Position numbers and translations under genes: made by a program
Source of the DNA: Elusimicrobiaceae bacterium
GTDB lineage: Bacteria > Elusimicrobiota > Elusimicrobia > Elusimicrobiales > Elusimicrobiaceae
Direction of reading: 5' to 3'
Assembly (NCBI GenBank): GCA_017501565.1
Contig: JAFVWP010000086.1
Span: 1 to 38,252 of the forward strand
DNA: 38,252 nucleotides
Notes under the pieces: generated by a model
Told to the model about the DNA's origin: nothing
The model's database searches: none
The model's input: the letters and a program-made list of their open reading frames with translations, nothing else
Part shown: piece after piece, positions 2,741 through 21,150 of the stretch
Numbering within the stretch: the stretch's first letter is position 1
Layout of the letters: each line of letters opens with the position of its first letter

Positions 2741-2819
2741 TCAAGCAGTTGATGTGGCTCTCTCTGCATAAAAAAACGCCCTGAAAAGGGCGTTTTAAAT
2801 ACGGAGGGAGAGAGATTTG
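2741..2819 (-). repeat. Second copy of the tRNA-Ser 3' end and its terminator
   Basis: These 79 bases match 2946-3024 at an offset of 205 with one mismatch (2813 against 3018). The copied segment contains the last 18 bases of tRNA-Ser (at 2802-2819), the terminator hairpin, and part of the CTGC-loop hairpin, where the copy breaks off. There is no complete second tRNA. Confidence 0.95.
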
Positions 2820-3006
2820 CCTTCCGGTCGTTTTGTTGACCCAAAACGCCTGCAGGCCGGGCTCGCGGTTTTTGCCTTTCGCCGAAAGGAACTATCATCG
2901 GCTCAAACAAAAACATCGCTGCGCCTTTCAAATCCCTACGCCACATCAAGCAGTTGATGTGGCTCTCTCTGCATAAAAAAACGCCCTGAAAAGGGCGTTT
3001 TAAATA
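2802..3006 (-). mobile_element. Short tRNA-associated element, copy 1, downstream of tRNA-Ser
   Basis: The element begins just past the intact tRNA-Ser 3' end and finishes in the ectopic 18-bp copy of that end, a unit of 205 bp. Its core shares, in the same orientation relative to the tRNA, a 22-nt identical block (2899-2920), a 17-nt identical block (2868-2884) and a 16-nt block with one change (2825-2840) with the element after tRNA-Arg(CCG) at 20947-21150. It also has a perfect 9-bp hairpin with a CTGC loop (2941-2962), matched by a hairpin of different stem sequence but the same loop in the other copy. No integrase or sizeable gene fits inside. Confidence 0.7.
2974..3001 (-). terminator. 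Terminator of tRNA-Ser
   Basis: A 9-bp stem (2979-2987 with 2992-3000) is followed, reading the minus strand, by a T run. It begins five bases after the tRNA discriminator base. A second copy is at 2769-2796. Confidence 0.85.
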
Positions 3007-3091
3007 CGGAGGGAGAGGGATTTGAACCCTCGAAGCCTTGCGGCTTACAGGTTTTCGAGACCTGCTGTTTCAACCACTCACACATCCCTCC
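3007..3091 (-). tRNA. tRNA-Ser (anticodon CGA)
   Basis: 85 nt on the minus strand. The acceptor arms GGAGGGA and TCCCTCC pair perfectly, with discriminator G. The anticodon loop CTCGAAA gives CGA, reading the UCG codon. The long variable arm (a GCC/GGC stem around GCAA) is the class II feature expected for serine. The T loop is TTCAAAT. The 3' CCA is not encoded. Confidence 0.95.
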
Positions 3092-13114: not shown

Positions 13115-13172
13115 TTGTTTTTTTAGCAGAAACCCATATAACTATAAATAATAGTGCATTTTGGAGAGAAAA

Positions 13173-16100
13173 ATGAAAAAATTTTTAGCCTTGTTTTTGA
13201 GTATCAGTTTGATGAGCTCTTACACTTTGCCTTTAGCGGCCCAAACGCCTGAAGAAGAAGCGGAAATAGAGCGAAAAGCCTCTTTGGTTGTGCAAGCGGC
13301 AGAAGAAAATGGGGAAGAAGCCCTTTTTCAAGCAGGGGTTGCATTAGCCAAAAACTTATGCGGCCAACAAGGCGTAGAATGTTTGGAAAGAGCCGCCTTT
13401 GAAGCCTTGCGCGCGGCGGGGGGAAACCCGGCAGAAGCCGTTGTGTGCGATGATAAGCAAGGCCAATGTACCTCTCTGTTAGTGTTTGGGCAAGGGGCGG
13501 TGCATTTTGCTTTAAAGCATATGCTTTACCACCATCAAACCCCTGTGATAGAGCGGGCCGATTCTCTGGTCAGCTTAATCACCCAATATGGGGTCCATTC
13601 TAAAGAAGACCAACGTTTGGCCATTGATTACTTTCAAGCAGCCGTTTCCGCCGCACAAAAGGATTGTTCCGGCGGGTTTTTTGTAGAATACGGCTTATCG
13701 GCCGGGCGGGCAGACCGCCGTCAGGTACGCAACCTGAAATTAGACCGCTGCGGTAAAGAAGTGGCCGCCGTATATGGGCTGGCTATGTTGGCCTACCAAG
13801 GGGCACAAGGGCAAAAAGCTGTCAGTACTATTGCTAAATTATTGGATAAGAAATATGACAGCCAATCCGCCGGGGCTATTATTCCGGCGGGGGTATCGGG
13901 TTTAGCTACCATCGGTACGCCCCAAGCCTATGAAGCCTTGGAAAAATTTTTGACAAAAACCACCACGCCCACGCTGGTCGGCAGCCTTTTTAATACTTCT
14001 TTAGAAGGGGCGGCCCAATTGGTGATGAGCGGCATCAGTGAAATGCGCGGCAGTAATATCCGTTATTTAAACCGCATCAACGCCGCCTACCAATATCCGG
14101 ACGAAGCCGAAGCGGCCCGCCAAGGATATGCGCCCAATACTGCGGCGGATTTGAAAAACCAAGTCCCGCAAACCAACCTGATGGAAGATGTGGGGGTTTT
14201 GTTAGGTACGGAAAGTGCCCAAAATGTCCATGCGAAAAATTTAGCCGTTTTTTTGGTGAAAAAGGCCAATGAATATGTAGAAAAAAATGCACAAGAAATT
14301 AAGCCTTTTTACGCCCACAATCCCCAGGCGGTGCGGGCTCCGTCCAAAGACGGCTTTCATGCCGCATCTAAAATACATTTTCCGTTGATTTTGGGTATTT
14401 TAGACGGCTGGCAACAAAATGCCCCGGCGCTTTTGTCTAATGCAGATGATGCTTTGTTGGAATTTTTCTATAAAGGCGATTGGTGGGATATTAACGAAGG
14501 CACCCAACAGCGTTTGCATTACAAAGCGCGCCAAATTGCCGCCAAAAAAGGCCAAAGCTGGCCCATGCCTACCCGCGATGAGCAAAAGGCCGAACGTTAC
14601 GCGCATAATGCCCAAATTTTAAATATTTCCCAAAAGACGGATATGGTGCTTATTCCTGTATTTTTGGTGATGCTGGTGGTTTCTATTCCGTCTATCGTAC
14701 GCAATATAACTTCTGCGGTGCGTATGCTGAAAACCAACCGCAAATTTATTGGTATTCGCTTAACGGGCCGTGCTTCTAAAACAACCAAAGCCGGCAAAAA
14801 AGCCGCCGCTGTTTCCGCGCAAAAGCCTGTTTCGGCTACGGCTACCAAAACGGCGGGAAAGCCCAAACCGGTTGCTTCTTCTGCGCCGCAAACTGCGGCT
14901 AAACCGACGTCTGCCAAGCCGGCAACGCAACGACCGGCCACAGAGCCGTTGCCGGAAGTGAAGGCTCCTAAGCCGGAGCCGTTGTCTGCCACGCCCAGAA
15001 AACAGATTGATGGGGATCTTTTAGGTCCCCTGGACCAGAAAGTACAACAAGCCAAAAAAATTGGTACGCCGTATCGGGAACGTTCCCTGATGCCTAAGAG
15101 CAAAGAGAACGTGGCAACAGGGCCGTATCAGGCGCGCAAAGACGGCTTAGTATATATGGAAGCACACCCCAACGACCCGTCCAAAGCTGTTTTCTATTAT
15201 GCCGATGATATGGGGCGTGTACGCACCGCTAAAGAAGTGCCGATGAGTCAATACGATGATGTAGTCAGCACTATGACGGAAGCGGACAAAGCCCAATTCA
15301 ATTATGGGGCTGATAATTTGTACGCAGACGATTTGGCCAAAATGCGTAAGGACCGAGAGTTTGACCGCTTGGAAAGCTTGGGCAAACAAATCCGCAAATT
15401 GGAAGATGAACGCCAATACATTATTGATAACCAAGCTGATACCTATGTCTTGGGCGAAGGCGGTCCGTTTGAGCGCACGCGCCAACTCCAGCATGAAATT
15501 GATGCGTTGAAAAAAGAAGCCGAACGTACTATTTTGGATATGAAAGCCAACGGCATGGGAGATGATTATTCCTTGAACATGACCTTGCAAAACGCCATGG
15601 ACAAATTTAGCGATATTCCCGCCGTTGCCCCTAAAAAAGAATTGGTGATTTCAGATGATATTCAAGAAGCCACCCGCCAGCTTGAAAACATTGGCGGAGA
15701 AATGAAAAAACTTCGCGAAGAGTTGCAACGTATCAGAAACTCCGGTCAAACCAATCCGCAAGTGATGGCCCGTACGCGTGAAATCAATAACCAACTGACG
15801 GCCTTGGAAAACGATGGCAGAAGAGCGATTGCTATTATGTCTAAAAAAGGCATGGGCAGTGAAGGTGCTTTATGGAAGATTTTTCAAAATGCCCAAGAAT
15901 CTTATGAAGATACCAAAAAGGTGGTGGCAACGGCAACGGGCAAGCATATGGCTTATCACAAACGTTCTTTAACGCCTAAAGCTTCGCGCAATGCGTCCCA
16001 AACGCAGTTTGCCCCGCGCAAAGACGGCCTGGTCTATATGGAAGAACACGCCACTGACCCGTCCAAAGCCGTTTTCTACTATGCCGATGATATGGGCCAA

Positions 16101-17030
16101 ATCAGCCGTATAGAAGAAGTGCCCATGAGCCATTACGATGACTTTATAGACGGCCTTTCCAGAGCTGATAAAGATGTGTTGGCGCGCTCTGCTGAAGTGT
16201 ATGGCGATGCAGTCTCTGCCGCACGCAAAGAGCGTGAATTTGAGCGCTTGGAAAGCCTGGGGAACCAAATCCGCGATTTACGAACACAACGCCAAGACAT
16301 TACCGGAAGCGGGGTGGTGGATCGCAACAACTTGGCACAAGCCAGCAAAATAGATAAAAAAATAGCCGAATTACAAAAAGAAGCTGAGCGAACTATTGCC
16401 GATATGGCCTCTAATGGTATGGGGCAAGAAGGATCTCTGCGCCGTATTTTCCAAACCGCGCAAGAATCAGTTGCGCCTGTTGGCAATGCAGCGCCGTCTG
16501 CCGCGCGCCATACGGCGTATGCCAACCGCTCTTTGATGCCTAAGTCTTCGGGGAGTAACAGCCGCAGTTTTACTCCGCGCAAAGATGGATTAGTGTATAT
16601 GGAAGCGCACGCCACTGACCCGTCCAAAGCTGTTTTCTACTATGCCGATGATATGGGGAAAATCAGCCGTATAGAAGAAGTGCCCATGAGCCATTACGAT
16701 GACCTTATAGACGGCCTTTCCGGAGCCGATAAAGATGTGTTGGCGCGCTCTGCTGAAGTATATGGCGATGTAGTCTCTGCCGCACGCAAAGAGCGTGAAT
16801 TTGAGCGCTTGGAAAATTTGGCCCATCAAGTGCGCAATTTAAAAGCACAGCAACGTCAGATAGAAACCGGCGGTGTGGTCAATGCACAAACCTTGGCACA
16901 AAGCCGCGATATTCAACATCAAATCTCTTCTTTGGTGGACGAAGCTAACCGCACCATTCGGGATATGTCTTCCAATGGTATGGGGAAAGAGCGTACCTTG
17001 CAACAGCTGTTTGCGAATTGGCAAGAGTAA
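13173..17030 (+). CDS. Large exported or membrane-anchored protein with repeated modules
   Basis: 1285 residues; GGAGAG precedes ATG 13173, preferred over the in-frame TTG at 13161. The layout is: signal peptide (about 1-24), a mainly helical domain (about 30-485), one transmembrane helix (about 489-511), a lysine-, alanine- and proline-rich linker (about 550-615), then tandem modules. Each full module has an RSLMPK lead, a compact RKDGLVYMEAHATDPSKAVF segment continuing YYADDMG, and a coiled coil beginning EFERLESL and ending near NGMG. Three full modules begin near residues 634, 927 and 1116. A coiled-coil-only unit (about 828-910) sits between the first two. The last two modules are nearly identical in DNA. 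No family is recognised. The tail could bind a polymer or a partner on one face of the membrane. Confidence 0.75.
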   Translation: MKKFLALFLSISLMSSYTLPLAAQTPEEEAEIERKASLVVQAAEENGEEALFQAGVALAKNLCGQQGVECLERAAFEALRAAGGNPAEAVVCDDKQGQCTSLLVFGQGAVHFALKHMLYHHQTPVIERADSLVSLITQYGVHSKEDQRLAIDYFQAAVSAAQKDCSGGFFVEYGLSAGRADRRQVRNLKLDRCGKEVAAVYGLAMLAYQGAQGQKAVSTIAKLLDKKYDSQSAGAIIPAGVSGLATIGTPQAYEALEKFLTKTTTPTLVGSLFNTSLEGAAQLVMSGISEMRGSNIRYLNRINAAYQYPDEAEAARQGYAPNTAADLKNQVPQTNLMEDVGVLLGTESAQNVHAKNLAVFLVKKANEYVEKNAQEIKPFYAHNPQAVRAPSKDGFHAASKIHFPLILGILDGWQQNAPALLSNADDALLEFFYKGDWWDINEGTQQRLHYKARQIAAKKGQSWPMPTRDEQKAERYAHNAQILNISQKTDMVLIPVFLVMLVVSIPSIVRNITSAVRMLKTNRKFIGIRLTGRASKTTKAGKKAAAVSAQKPVSATATKTAGKPKPVASSAPQTAAKPTSAKPATQRPATEPLPEVKAPKPEPLSATPRKQIDGDLLGPLDQKVQQAKKIGTPYRERSLMPKSKENVATGPYQARKDGLVYMEAHPNDPSKAVFYYADDMGRVRTAKEVPMSQYDDVVSTMTEADKAQFNYGADNLYADDLAKMRKDREFDRLESLGKQIRKLEDERQYIIDNQADTYVLGEGGPFERTRQLQHEIDALKKEAERTILDMKANGMGDDYSLNMTLQNAMDKFSDIPAVAPKKELVISDDIQEATRQLENIGGEMKKLREELQRIRNSGQTNPQVMARTREINNQLTALENDGRRAIAIMSKKGMGSEGALWKIFQNAQESYEDTKKVVATATGKHMAYHKRSLTPKASRNASQTQFAPRKDGLVYMEEHATDPSKAVFYYADDMGQISRIEEVPMSHYDDFIDGLSRADKDVLARSAEVYGDAVSAARKEREFERLESLGNQIRDLRTQRQDITGSGVVDRNNLAQASKIDKKIAELQKEAERTIADMASNGMGQEGSLRRIFQTAQESVAPVGNAAPSAARHTAYANRSLMPKSSGSNSRSFTPRKDGLVYMEAHATDPSKAVFYYADDMGKISRIEEVPMSHYDDLIDGLSGADKDVLARSAEVYGDVVSAARKEREFERLENLAHQVRNLKAQQRQIETGGVVNAQTLAQSRDIQHQISSLVDEANRTIRDMSSNGMGKERTLQQLFANWQE
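16040..16254 (+). repeat. Intragenic direct repeat, copy A
   Basis: A 215-bp segment matches 16601-16815 at an offset of 561 with only a handful of substitutions, many of them synonymous. A more diverged third copy lies about 882 bp upstream of copy A, near 15160-15380. Confidence 0.9.
16601..16815 (+). repeat. Intragenic direct repeat, copy B
   Basis: Partner of 16040-16254. The high DNA identity implies recent duplication or gene conversion, so module number may vary between strains. Confidence 0.9.
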
Positions 17031-19036: not shown

Positions 19037-19066
19037 TATAAAAAAACCACGCTTTCGCGTGGTTTT
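19037..19066 (-). terminator. Terminator of the acetyltransferase gene
   Basis: An AAAACCACGC/GCGTGGTTTT stem (19043-19052 with 19057-19066) is followed by a T run on the minus strand. It is a near copy of the tRNA-Arg(GCG) terminator: 28 of 30 bases match 19781-19810 at an offset of 740. Confidence 0.8.
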
Positions 19067-19094
19067 ATAGTGGCCAAAAGGATCTGGCTCGGTA

Positions 19095-19718
19095 CTATTT
19101 CAAACTATCAATTTCTTTTTGTAAATTAGCCAAAAATTTACCCGCATGCGCGCCGTCCATTTGCGTGTGATGAAATTGGAAGGATATCGGCAGAGTGTAG
19201 CGGAACCATTTTTTGCGATATTTTCCCCAAATTATAAACGGGTTATTGAAAATTCCGCTGTTCATGCCGACAGCCCCATCTATTTCCGTGTCTATAATGG
19301 CGGACGTACCAATTACCATACTCTCGGCAGATAAATCCCTATCTTGGCAAGTGTTGGCTACTTGGGCGGTACAGGTGAGATACTCTTGGTTGAATTGTCT
19401 TAAATCGGGCGTAAAAAGAATATCGCATGAACTTACTTCTCCCGCTTTGTTTTTTACGATGGTATTTACGGCAAGGGTATTGTATTTTATGAGTCTTTCC
19501 CCAACAGGCAAGGTAAAAAATTCCTTCACTTGCACTGCGGCACTACCGATGCAGTAGTCCAACAGCATATTGGGTTTAAGGTGTTTTTTCTTGCTGATTT
19601 TAATGAGATTTGTTATGTCCAACGTTTTGAAAAAGGTAACCATTGGGTTGGGGGCTTTTAACCATAGTTTGTAAGCCATGGCCCGTGTGGTATCCTGCGG
19701 ATTTACTTCTTTGGGCAT
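19095..19718 (-). CDS. Chloramphenicol acetyltransferase-like O-acyltransferase
   Basis: 207 residues, the typical size for the trimeric CatA family. ATG 19718 is chosen because TAGGAG lies 8 nt upstream; the longer open frame has no ribosome site. The catalytic HHxxxDG motif is present as FQFHHTQMDGAHAGKF, near residues 181-196, and the preceding INNPFIIWGKY and SFQFHH layout follows the family. CatA enzymes transfer acetyl from acetyl-CoA to a hydroxyl group, classically of chloramphenicol. The sequence is divergent in the drug-binding regions, so the substrate is uncertain and resistance should not be assumed. It lies between two near-identical terminators, directly downstream of tRNA-Arg(GCG), which suggests an inserted cassette. 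Confidence 0.8.
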   Translation of the reverse strand: MPKEVNPQDTTRAMAYKLWLKAPNPMVTFFKTLDITNLIKISKKKHLKPNMLLDYCIGSAAVQVKEFFTLPVGERLIKYNTLAVNTIVKNKAGEVSSCDILFTPDLRQFNQEYLTCTAQVANTCQDRDLSAESMVIGTSAIIDTEIDGAVGMNSGIFNNPFIIWGKYRKKWFRYTLPISFQFHHTQMDGAHAGKFLANLQKEIDSLK

Positions 19719-19780
19719 AAAGGGGACTCCTAAACTTAAAAATTGTTTAATCAATTATATATTTTTGTGTAAGGATAAAC

Positions 19781-19808
19781 AAAAAACCACGCTTTTGCGT
19801 GGTTTTAT
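19781..19808 (-). terminator. Terminator of tRNA-Arg(GCG)
   Basis: An AAAACCACGC/GCGTGGTTTT hairpin is followed by a T run on the minus strand, immediately after the tRNA 3' end. It is duplicated at 19041-19070. Confidence 0.85.
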
Positions 19809-19809
19809 A

Positions 19810-20874: not shown

Positions 20875-20946
20875 GCGCTCGTAGTTCAATGGATAGAGCG
20901 TCAGCCTCCGAAGCTGGAAATGTGGGTTCGACTCCCGCCGAGCGCA
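20875..20946 (+). tRNA. tRNA-Arg (anticodon CCG)
   Basis: 72 nt. The acceptor arms GCGCTCG and CGAGCGC pair perfectly, with discriminator A. The anticodon stem is TCAGC/GCTGG and the loop CTCCGAA, giving CCG, which reads CGG. The T loop is TTCGACT. CCA is not encoded. Confidence 0.94.
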
Positions 20947-21150
20947 GATTTTAAAAACACGCGGAAGCGTGTTTTTTTATGCGCAAGGAGCGGGCCAACT
21001 GCTTTGCCCGCGTCGGGGGGAGAAGACCGGAGCGATGTTTTTGTTTGAGCCGGTAAAAGTTGCCTTACGGCGAAAGGCAAAAACTGCGAGGTCCGGCCCG
21101 AAGGCAATTTGAGTCAACAAAATGACCGCAGGGGACTCCCGCCGAGCGCA
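20947..21150 (+). mobile_element. Short tRNA-associated element, copy 2, downstream of tRNA-Arg(CCG)
   Basis: A unit of 204 bp begins after the intact tRNA and ends with an exact copy (21134-21150) of the last 17 bases of that tRNA (20930-20946). It shares the conserved blocks at 21031-21052, 21068-21084 and 21113-21128 with the element after tRNA-Ser, in the same orientation relative to the tRNA. An 8-position stem with one mismatch (20991-20998 with 21003-21010) again closes on a CTGC loop. Apart from a 25-codon frame beginning MFLFEP, whose downstream reading frame is not conserved in the other copy, nothing coding is visible. The gap from 21151 to 21321 shows no further feature. Confidence 0.7.
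20953..20978 (+). terminator. Terminator of tRNA-Arg(CCG)
   Basis: An AAAAACACGC/GCGTGTTTTT stem with a 4-nt loop and a T run to 20978, beginning 7 bases after the tRNA. It would stop most transcription before the element core. Confidence 0.85.

Follow-up and report, generated by a model that had tools for sequence, protein, structure and literature searches.

A stretch of approximately 200 bp directly behind the gene for tRNA-Arg(CCG), in the 38,252-bp contig JAFVWP010000086.1 of an Elusimicrobiaceae bacterium (assembly GCA_017501565.1; the whole contig is hereafter the window), belongs to a dispersed family of sequences that lie at the 3' ends of tRNA genes, share a single fold and carry antisense copies of the end of the local tRNA. 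We consider it probable that they are a family of mobile structured elements which insert at the tRNA T loop. The element is most likely non-autonomous and non-coding, with a length of ~180–205 bp. Its position, its polymorphism, its growth in tandem, its one conserved fold and its site-specific antisense arms were all observed. Below, G000 denotes the window's genome and L numbers denote individual loci.

The host gene tRNA-Arg(CCG) was located at 20875..20946 on the plus strand by both ARAGORN and Rfam RF00005. Its last 17 bases, from tRNA position 57 to the 3' end (20930..20946), open a unit of 204 bp and are repeated at 21134..21150. An earlier note on this DNA had described this exact copy 204 bp downstream. 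The sequence, GACTCCCGCCGAGCGCA, has no further occurrence in the window beyond those at 20930 and 21134, and ~1.3e-6 occurrences are expected by chance. The remaining parts of the unit are likewise on the plus strand. The left repeat is followed by an intrinsic-terminator-like hairpin with a T run (20959..20979; sequence and repeat comparison), which is probably the local tRNA terminator because it resembles that of the tRNA-Arg(GCG) paralogue (19781-19809). Then come a stretch antisense to the tRNA 3' end (20980..20984), which is short in the Arg copy and was recognized from sequence and tested over 102 loci, and hairpin hp1 (20990..21011), with variable arms and a conserved loop AACTGCTT at 20997-21004. 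A second stretch (21014..21024) is antisense to tRNA positions 54-64, i.e. the T loop and T stem, with 8 of 11 matches, and constitutes the 5' strand of helix P1. The conserved core (21025..21133) consists of GACC-GGAGCGATG, hairpin HP2, CTGCGAG-GTCC and hairpin HP3 with a GTCA loop, and the right tRNA-end repeat is also the 3' strand of P1. The antisense copy of the tRNA end inside the stretch was absent from the earlier note. The folding energy of the Arg copy alone was -67.2 kcal/mol (z = -2.4).

The window contains a second copy, behind tRNA-Ser(CGA) (3007..3091, minus strand, ARAGORN). Here a left repeat of 79 bp (2946..3024, minus strand) comprises the tRNA end, the terminator, the antisense acceptor part, and hp1 as far as AACTGCTTGA. 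It is followed on the same strand by the remainder of hp1, the antisense T arm and the core with HP2 and HP3 (2820..2945), and by the right 79-bp repeat (2741..2819, minus strand), which ends just beyond the hp1 loop. Comparison of inverted pairs and of similarity agreed with the note that the same blocks lie between the repeats at both tRNAs, in the same orientation relative to the tRNA, and that every copy has the end of its own host tRNA. The note was also right that the same element is present at another tRNA, but a count of two was too low for this genome. The near-equal unit lengths of 204 and 205 bp, which it had found striking, are no special clue: in 79 loci the median was 195 bp, with an interquartile range of 180–203 and a range of 149–291. 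The right-hand repeat also differs in length by site (17 bp at Arg, 79 bp at Ser and 28 bp at Thr).

A common order of parts was found across loci. In tRNA sense, a unit starts with the tRNA 3' end from approximately C56/G57 and continues with a spacer (which holds a terminator-like hairpin in 58 of 104 loci), the antisense acceptor end, hp1, the antisense of positions 54-64, the core and again the tRNA 3' end. The antisense tRNA-end copy is interrupted by hp1 between positions 64 and 65, and the acceptor-end match starts most often at position 65. Hairpin hp1 has a stem of 7-8 bp, and more than 25 different stems were observed, with 1101 Watson-Crick, 2 G-T, 2 A-C and 14 other positions. In the core, HP2 lies within a conserved internal loop, GCAGCGATG/CCGCGAG, and HP3 is closed by a GNNA loop (GTCA 72, GTTA 11, GCAA 8, GAAA 4, GGAA 3, GTGA 1). 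Helix P1 is formed by the antisense 54-64 and the right tRNA-end copy, which was recognizable in 79 of 102 loci and most commonly started at tRNA position 56/57 (39 of 79). Distant patescibacterial copies keep this architecture, with an altered hp1 loop. At five loci (L057, L140, L164, L224 and L301) the palindrome made of tRNA end, terminator and antisense was lost from right-hand copies, joining the T-loop start to hp1, as expected for hairpin deletion. No conserved open reading frame (ORF) was found in the unit.

The fold is real, and it is on the sense strand. In an alignment of 25 units, 36 of 47 helix pairs changed on both sides, with 211 double-change cells against 64 +/- 7 in shuffled alignments. 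Pair cells were standard in 86.9%, compared with 67.4 +/- 0.8 in shuffles and 34-46% in slid controls; since the structure was drawn on the same alignment, this percentage is favoured, and the double changes are the stronger point. The sense strand folded better than the antisense strand in 129 of 139 units with RNA and DNA energies alike, so that this comparison does not tell RNA from single-stranded DNA, and the conserved G-U pairs of HP2 and HP3 are possible on the sense strand only. Rfam 15 models at gathering score detected only tRNA in the window. Four units from other genomes, searched at E<=1, gave no credible match, and two weak sub-threshold matches overlapped tRNA genes, which argues against a known Rfam 15 RNA family. 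Inspection by eye did not reveal the catalytic core of hammerhead, group I or group II ribozymes.

The antisense arms are matched to the tRNA beside which they stand; the cores are not. Across 104 loci and 26 isoacceptors, the 11 bases that precede the core agreed with positions 54-64 of the adjacent tRNA at 10.0 of 11 positions, and with those of other tRNAs at 7.6. At positions 57-64 of the T arm there were 735 matches with the own tRNA against 503 +/- 10 after permutation (maximum 547), and for the acceptor arm 513 against 343 +/- 10 (maximum 384); none of 10,000 permutations reached the observed value in either case. Mean core identity was 0.774 for the same tRNA in different genomes, 0.769 for different tRNAs in different genomes and 0.802 for different tRNAs in one genome, with few pairs in the first and last of these classes. 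Because the arms match the local tRNA and the cores are independent of tRNA identity, the arms are rewritten at each site, and core and hp1 travel. In G064, for example, an identical hp1 stem occurs behind Leu, Asn, Gln and Arg tRNAs, each time with local spacer and arms. The earlier note had offered a choice between duplication at insertion and capture of the tRNA end. That each copy has its own tRNA end was borne out, but this dichotomy is too simple, since the antisense arms, too, are site-specific. Quasipalindrome template switching, known as a source of mutations that turn imperfect inverted repeats into perfect ones (PMC7202029, PMC3820800), would plausibly rewrite the arms and account for the lack of G-T pairs in hp1.

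A search of the window's genome with the Arg stretch revealed at least seven copies, each behind a different tRNA (Arg(CCG), Thr(TGT), Val(CAC), Gln(CTG), Ser(CGA), Ser(TGA) and, more distant, Gln(TTG)), and one remnant without a tRNA. With plain BLASTN the element was found in 23 of 25 genomes of the genus. A single gapped pattern of conserved blocks, run over 84,980 species genomes, gave 107 stretches. Elusimicrobiota predominated, and the other sources were metagenome-assembled genomes (MAGs) of Colwell-, Yanofsky-, Harrison-, Lloyd- and Zambryskibacteria and of the Parcubacteria group, unnamed bacteria and one MAG labelled Nanoarchaeota, whose full copy (L175) is possibly a binning error. 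All true hits that were inspected adjoin a tRNA or tRNA end at its 3' side; five hits, in Thermomonas (2), Paraburkholderia, Mycetocola and Minwuia, were coding false positives with no tRNA. A covariance model, which the earlier note had called for, was made from 25 units and works. It had matches in 117 of 295 Elusimicrobiota genomes and 24 of 90 genera, with scoring limited to ~10 candidates per genome at most. In Patescibacteria, the phylum of the Colwellbacteria MAG, 39 of 380 genomes had matches. One genome of 1.3 Mb had at least 21 matches. Overall, copies range from 1 to more than 20 per genome in two distantly related phyla, often as tandem units, and at least 26 isoacceptors serve as hosts. 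Such a dispersed family across many genomes clearly contradicts the prospect, raised by the note, of just two copies explained by assembly error. Among viral contigs, phages and plasmids, the patterns and query tried gave no true match and one coding false positive, which argues against a phage- or plasmid-borne element.

Evidence of mobility was found at a tRNA-Thr locus before a TerC-like gene. This locus is filled in G000, G001 and G010, truncated in G013 and reduced to a remnant in G015, and it is cleanly empty in eight sister genomes, as is another copy of the locus within G010. The 28-bp flanking repeat in G000 includes downstream sequence, TTTTTTCTTTG, that is also present at the empty sites. 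Tandem arrays were observed behind Tyr, Thr, Met and Ser tRNAs, among others. In G064, the right flank of an element at a Ser locus is common to a Leu locus on the same contig (L304, L310).

We looked for a partner gene that could act in trans. Clustering of 801 ORFs near 131 loci yielded no recurrent neighbour family; the largest clusters resembled chained pilin-type ORFs and chance ORFs running through the element. Reverse transcriptase (PF00078) was absent from most of those element-rich genomes that were tested, ten in number (G000, G004, G011, G015, G018, G019, G024, G059, G064 and G085), IS110 transposase (PF02371) from 16 of 16 genus genomes tested, and Y1_Tnp (PF01797) from G000 and 13 other genus genomes, being present in 2. 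Tyrosine recombinases were present in all genomes examined. The partner tyrosine recombinase proposed by the earlier note did not emerge: the window's genome has just two, of XerC/XerD size, as does the likewise element-rich G004, and the distribution of longer integrases among sister genomes does not follow that of the element. Related solo integrases of ~364 aa occur in element-rich G003, G015, G018, G053, G059 and G064 and were not seen in other element-rich genomes, while G005 and G107 have 5-6 tyrosine recombinase hits and only 1 or 0 elements. Members of this subfamily (L373, L374, L375, L085, L089 and L372) start with MSVHKIKKGPYYYADY or similar and lie in varied contexts with no adjacent tRNA; it is possible that the subfamily is the helper. 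In three genomes (L081, L377 and L383), tRNA-Val(GAC) or its 3' end with an element lies near a longer integrase, and at the G011 tRNA-Val(GAC) locus the 5' part of the tRNA was not recognizable. None of the four enzyme families provided a consistent partner.

In our preferred reading, the element enters a tRNA gene at the T loop beside C56/G57, with the tRNA staying intact and copies of its 3' end flanking the insert. We infer that the element works through its sense strand, folded in single-stranded form, either as RNA or as single-stranded DNA as in integron attC sites. The antisense arms, split by hp1, could pair with the left tRNA-end copy, for target recognition, or with the right copy, as the P1 helix that closes the core. 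That this pairing is the targeting step is a tentative suggestion, somewhat less probable than its opposite. Insertion might be completed by a host or mobile-element recombinase or by repair machinery, homologous recombination between tRNA-end copies would generate arrays and losses, and the arms would be recast to the local tRNA, plausibly via quasipalindrome template switching. It is doubtful, but conceivable, that integration is guided by RNA or structure with no protein of the element's own, the split arms reading the 3' end of the tRNA gene, directing insertion at C56/G57 and being rewritten at the new tRNA. Several observations count against this reading. In 58 of 104 loci a terminator separates the element from its tRNA, which speaks against routine transcription driven by the tRNA promoter. 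Stems of hp1 are nearly free of G-T (2 of 1119 positions), which is unusual under purely RNA-level constraint, and 23 of 102 copies have no recognizable right tRNA repeat. Neither an excised form, a transcript nor an enzyme was seen, and part of the mobility may be plain homologous recombination.

Other origins should be weighed against the same data. The units might be minimal cargo-less satellites of a classical tRNA-integrating element, moved by a prophage or integrative and conjugative element (ICE) tyrosine recombinase acting in trans on T-loop att sites, with the hairpins as recombinase-binding arm sites. This is favoured by the repeats from the T loop to the 3' end, which tRNA integrases typically leave behind (PMC2647930, citing Williams 2002; PMC9897764), and by the related ~364-aa integrases in six element-rich genomes. 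However, G000 and G004 carry no tyrosine recombinase beyond the pair of XerC/XerD size, G005 and G107 show the reverse case, a fixed core site does not account for 26 isoacceptors with matching antisense arms, and the compensatory changes across the core are left unexplained; we regard this origin as unlikely. A host-beneficial tRNA-linked non-coding RNA, tRNA-like or tRNA-binding, kept matched to its tRNA through gene conversion and dispersed by homologous recombination, appears improbable: the element is patchy among sister species and at orthologous tRNAs, its copies decay and terminators often precede it. Yet the strong conservation of the fold, the GNNA loops and the conserved internal loops do suggest a function of the folded strand, and the arms make an acceptor/T-stem-like helix with hp1 at 64/65.

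Purely mutational or retrotransposition routes fare worse. Palindrome-driven replication slippage with template switching at tRNA ends could make and spread the pattern with no dedicated mobility, as the near-perfect palindromes, the palindrome deletions at the five loci named above, the arms rewritten to local sequence and the known process of quasipalindrome correction (PMC7202029) might indicate; a conserved core with the same internal loops at many tRNAs in two phyla cannot arise in this way, and we give this route very little credence. Least probable is a retroelement whose RNA copy is inserted by target-primed reverse transcription. PF00078 is absent from the ten element-rich genomes, against which stand flanking repeats of variable length, last units that are incomplete and one case that looks like a 3' transduction (L304 to L310). 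A mobile structured element at the T loop remains our preferred interpretation.

Known systems resemble such an element only in part. Tyrosine-recombinase elements that integrate at tRNA genes (prophages, ICEs, tycheposons) also form tRNA 3'-end repeats from the T loop and leave the tRNA intact, but the present element has neither integrase nor cargo, is ~200 bp long, uses many isoacceptors at once and has an antisense tRNA-end copy and a covarying fold. Integron cassettes and their attC sites share tandem units, a site with conserved structure and variable sequence, and a boundary inside a paired stem; unlike these, our units have no ORF, are anchored at tRNAs and have a stem sequence that tracks the local tRNA. 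With respect to the integron core boxes GTTRRRY/RYYYAAC, the aligned units have no conserved GTTRRRY at the boundary, and no IntI was seen, although no search was aimed at it. IS110/IS1111 elements with their bridge RNA likewise have a structured non-coding strand (~150-180 nt) with a stretch complementary to the target, whereas here the genus has no IS110 transposase, both antisense parts pair with one target strand and tRNA-end repeats are formed. Miniature inverted-repeat transposable elements and repetitive extragenic palindromic (REP) elements mobilised by TnpA-REP are also short, non-coding, hairpin-forming, multi-copy and presumably moved in trans. They differ from our element, which lacks terminal inverted repeats and lies strictly at tRNA ends in a single orientation, and no Y1 transposase is encoded in G000. 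The likeness to attC or bridge RNA is that of a structured strand complementary to its target; the enzyme test failed for IS110, Y1 and reverse-transcribing elements.

Two other features of the window were observed. Near-identical terminators (19041-19069 and 19781-19809, 740 bp apart) bracket a gene at 19095-19754 (minus strand) just behind tRNA-Arg(GCG); its product resembles acyltransferases of the chloramphenicol acetyltransferase fold and looks ordinary. An ORF at 13161-17030 (1289 aa) has internal repeats: an 83-nt block present three times and a 281-nt repeat of 89% identity with a spacing of 561 nt.

No prior description of this element was found in Rfam 15 or in open-licence papers, and mention elsewhere is possible. 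It appears to be an undescribed and widespread class of structured non-coding DNA, tied to tRNA genes, which are among the most conserved in the cell, in two phyla of mostly uncultured bacteria with small genomes. Fragments of tRNA ends that it leaves behind can mislead tRNA annotation, and its fold supplies a ready covariance model to trace it through metagenomes. If mobile, it would rank with the smallest known insertion elements, and it may recognize its targets by base pairing.
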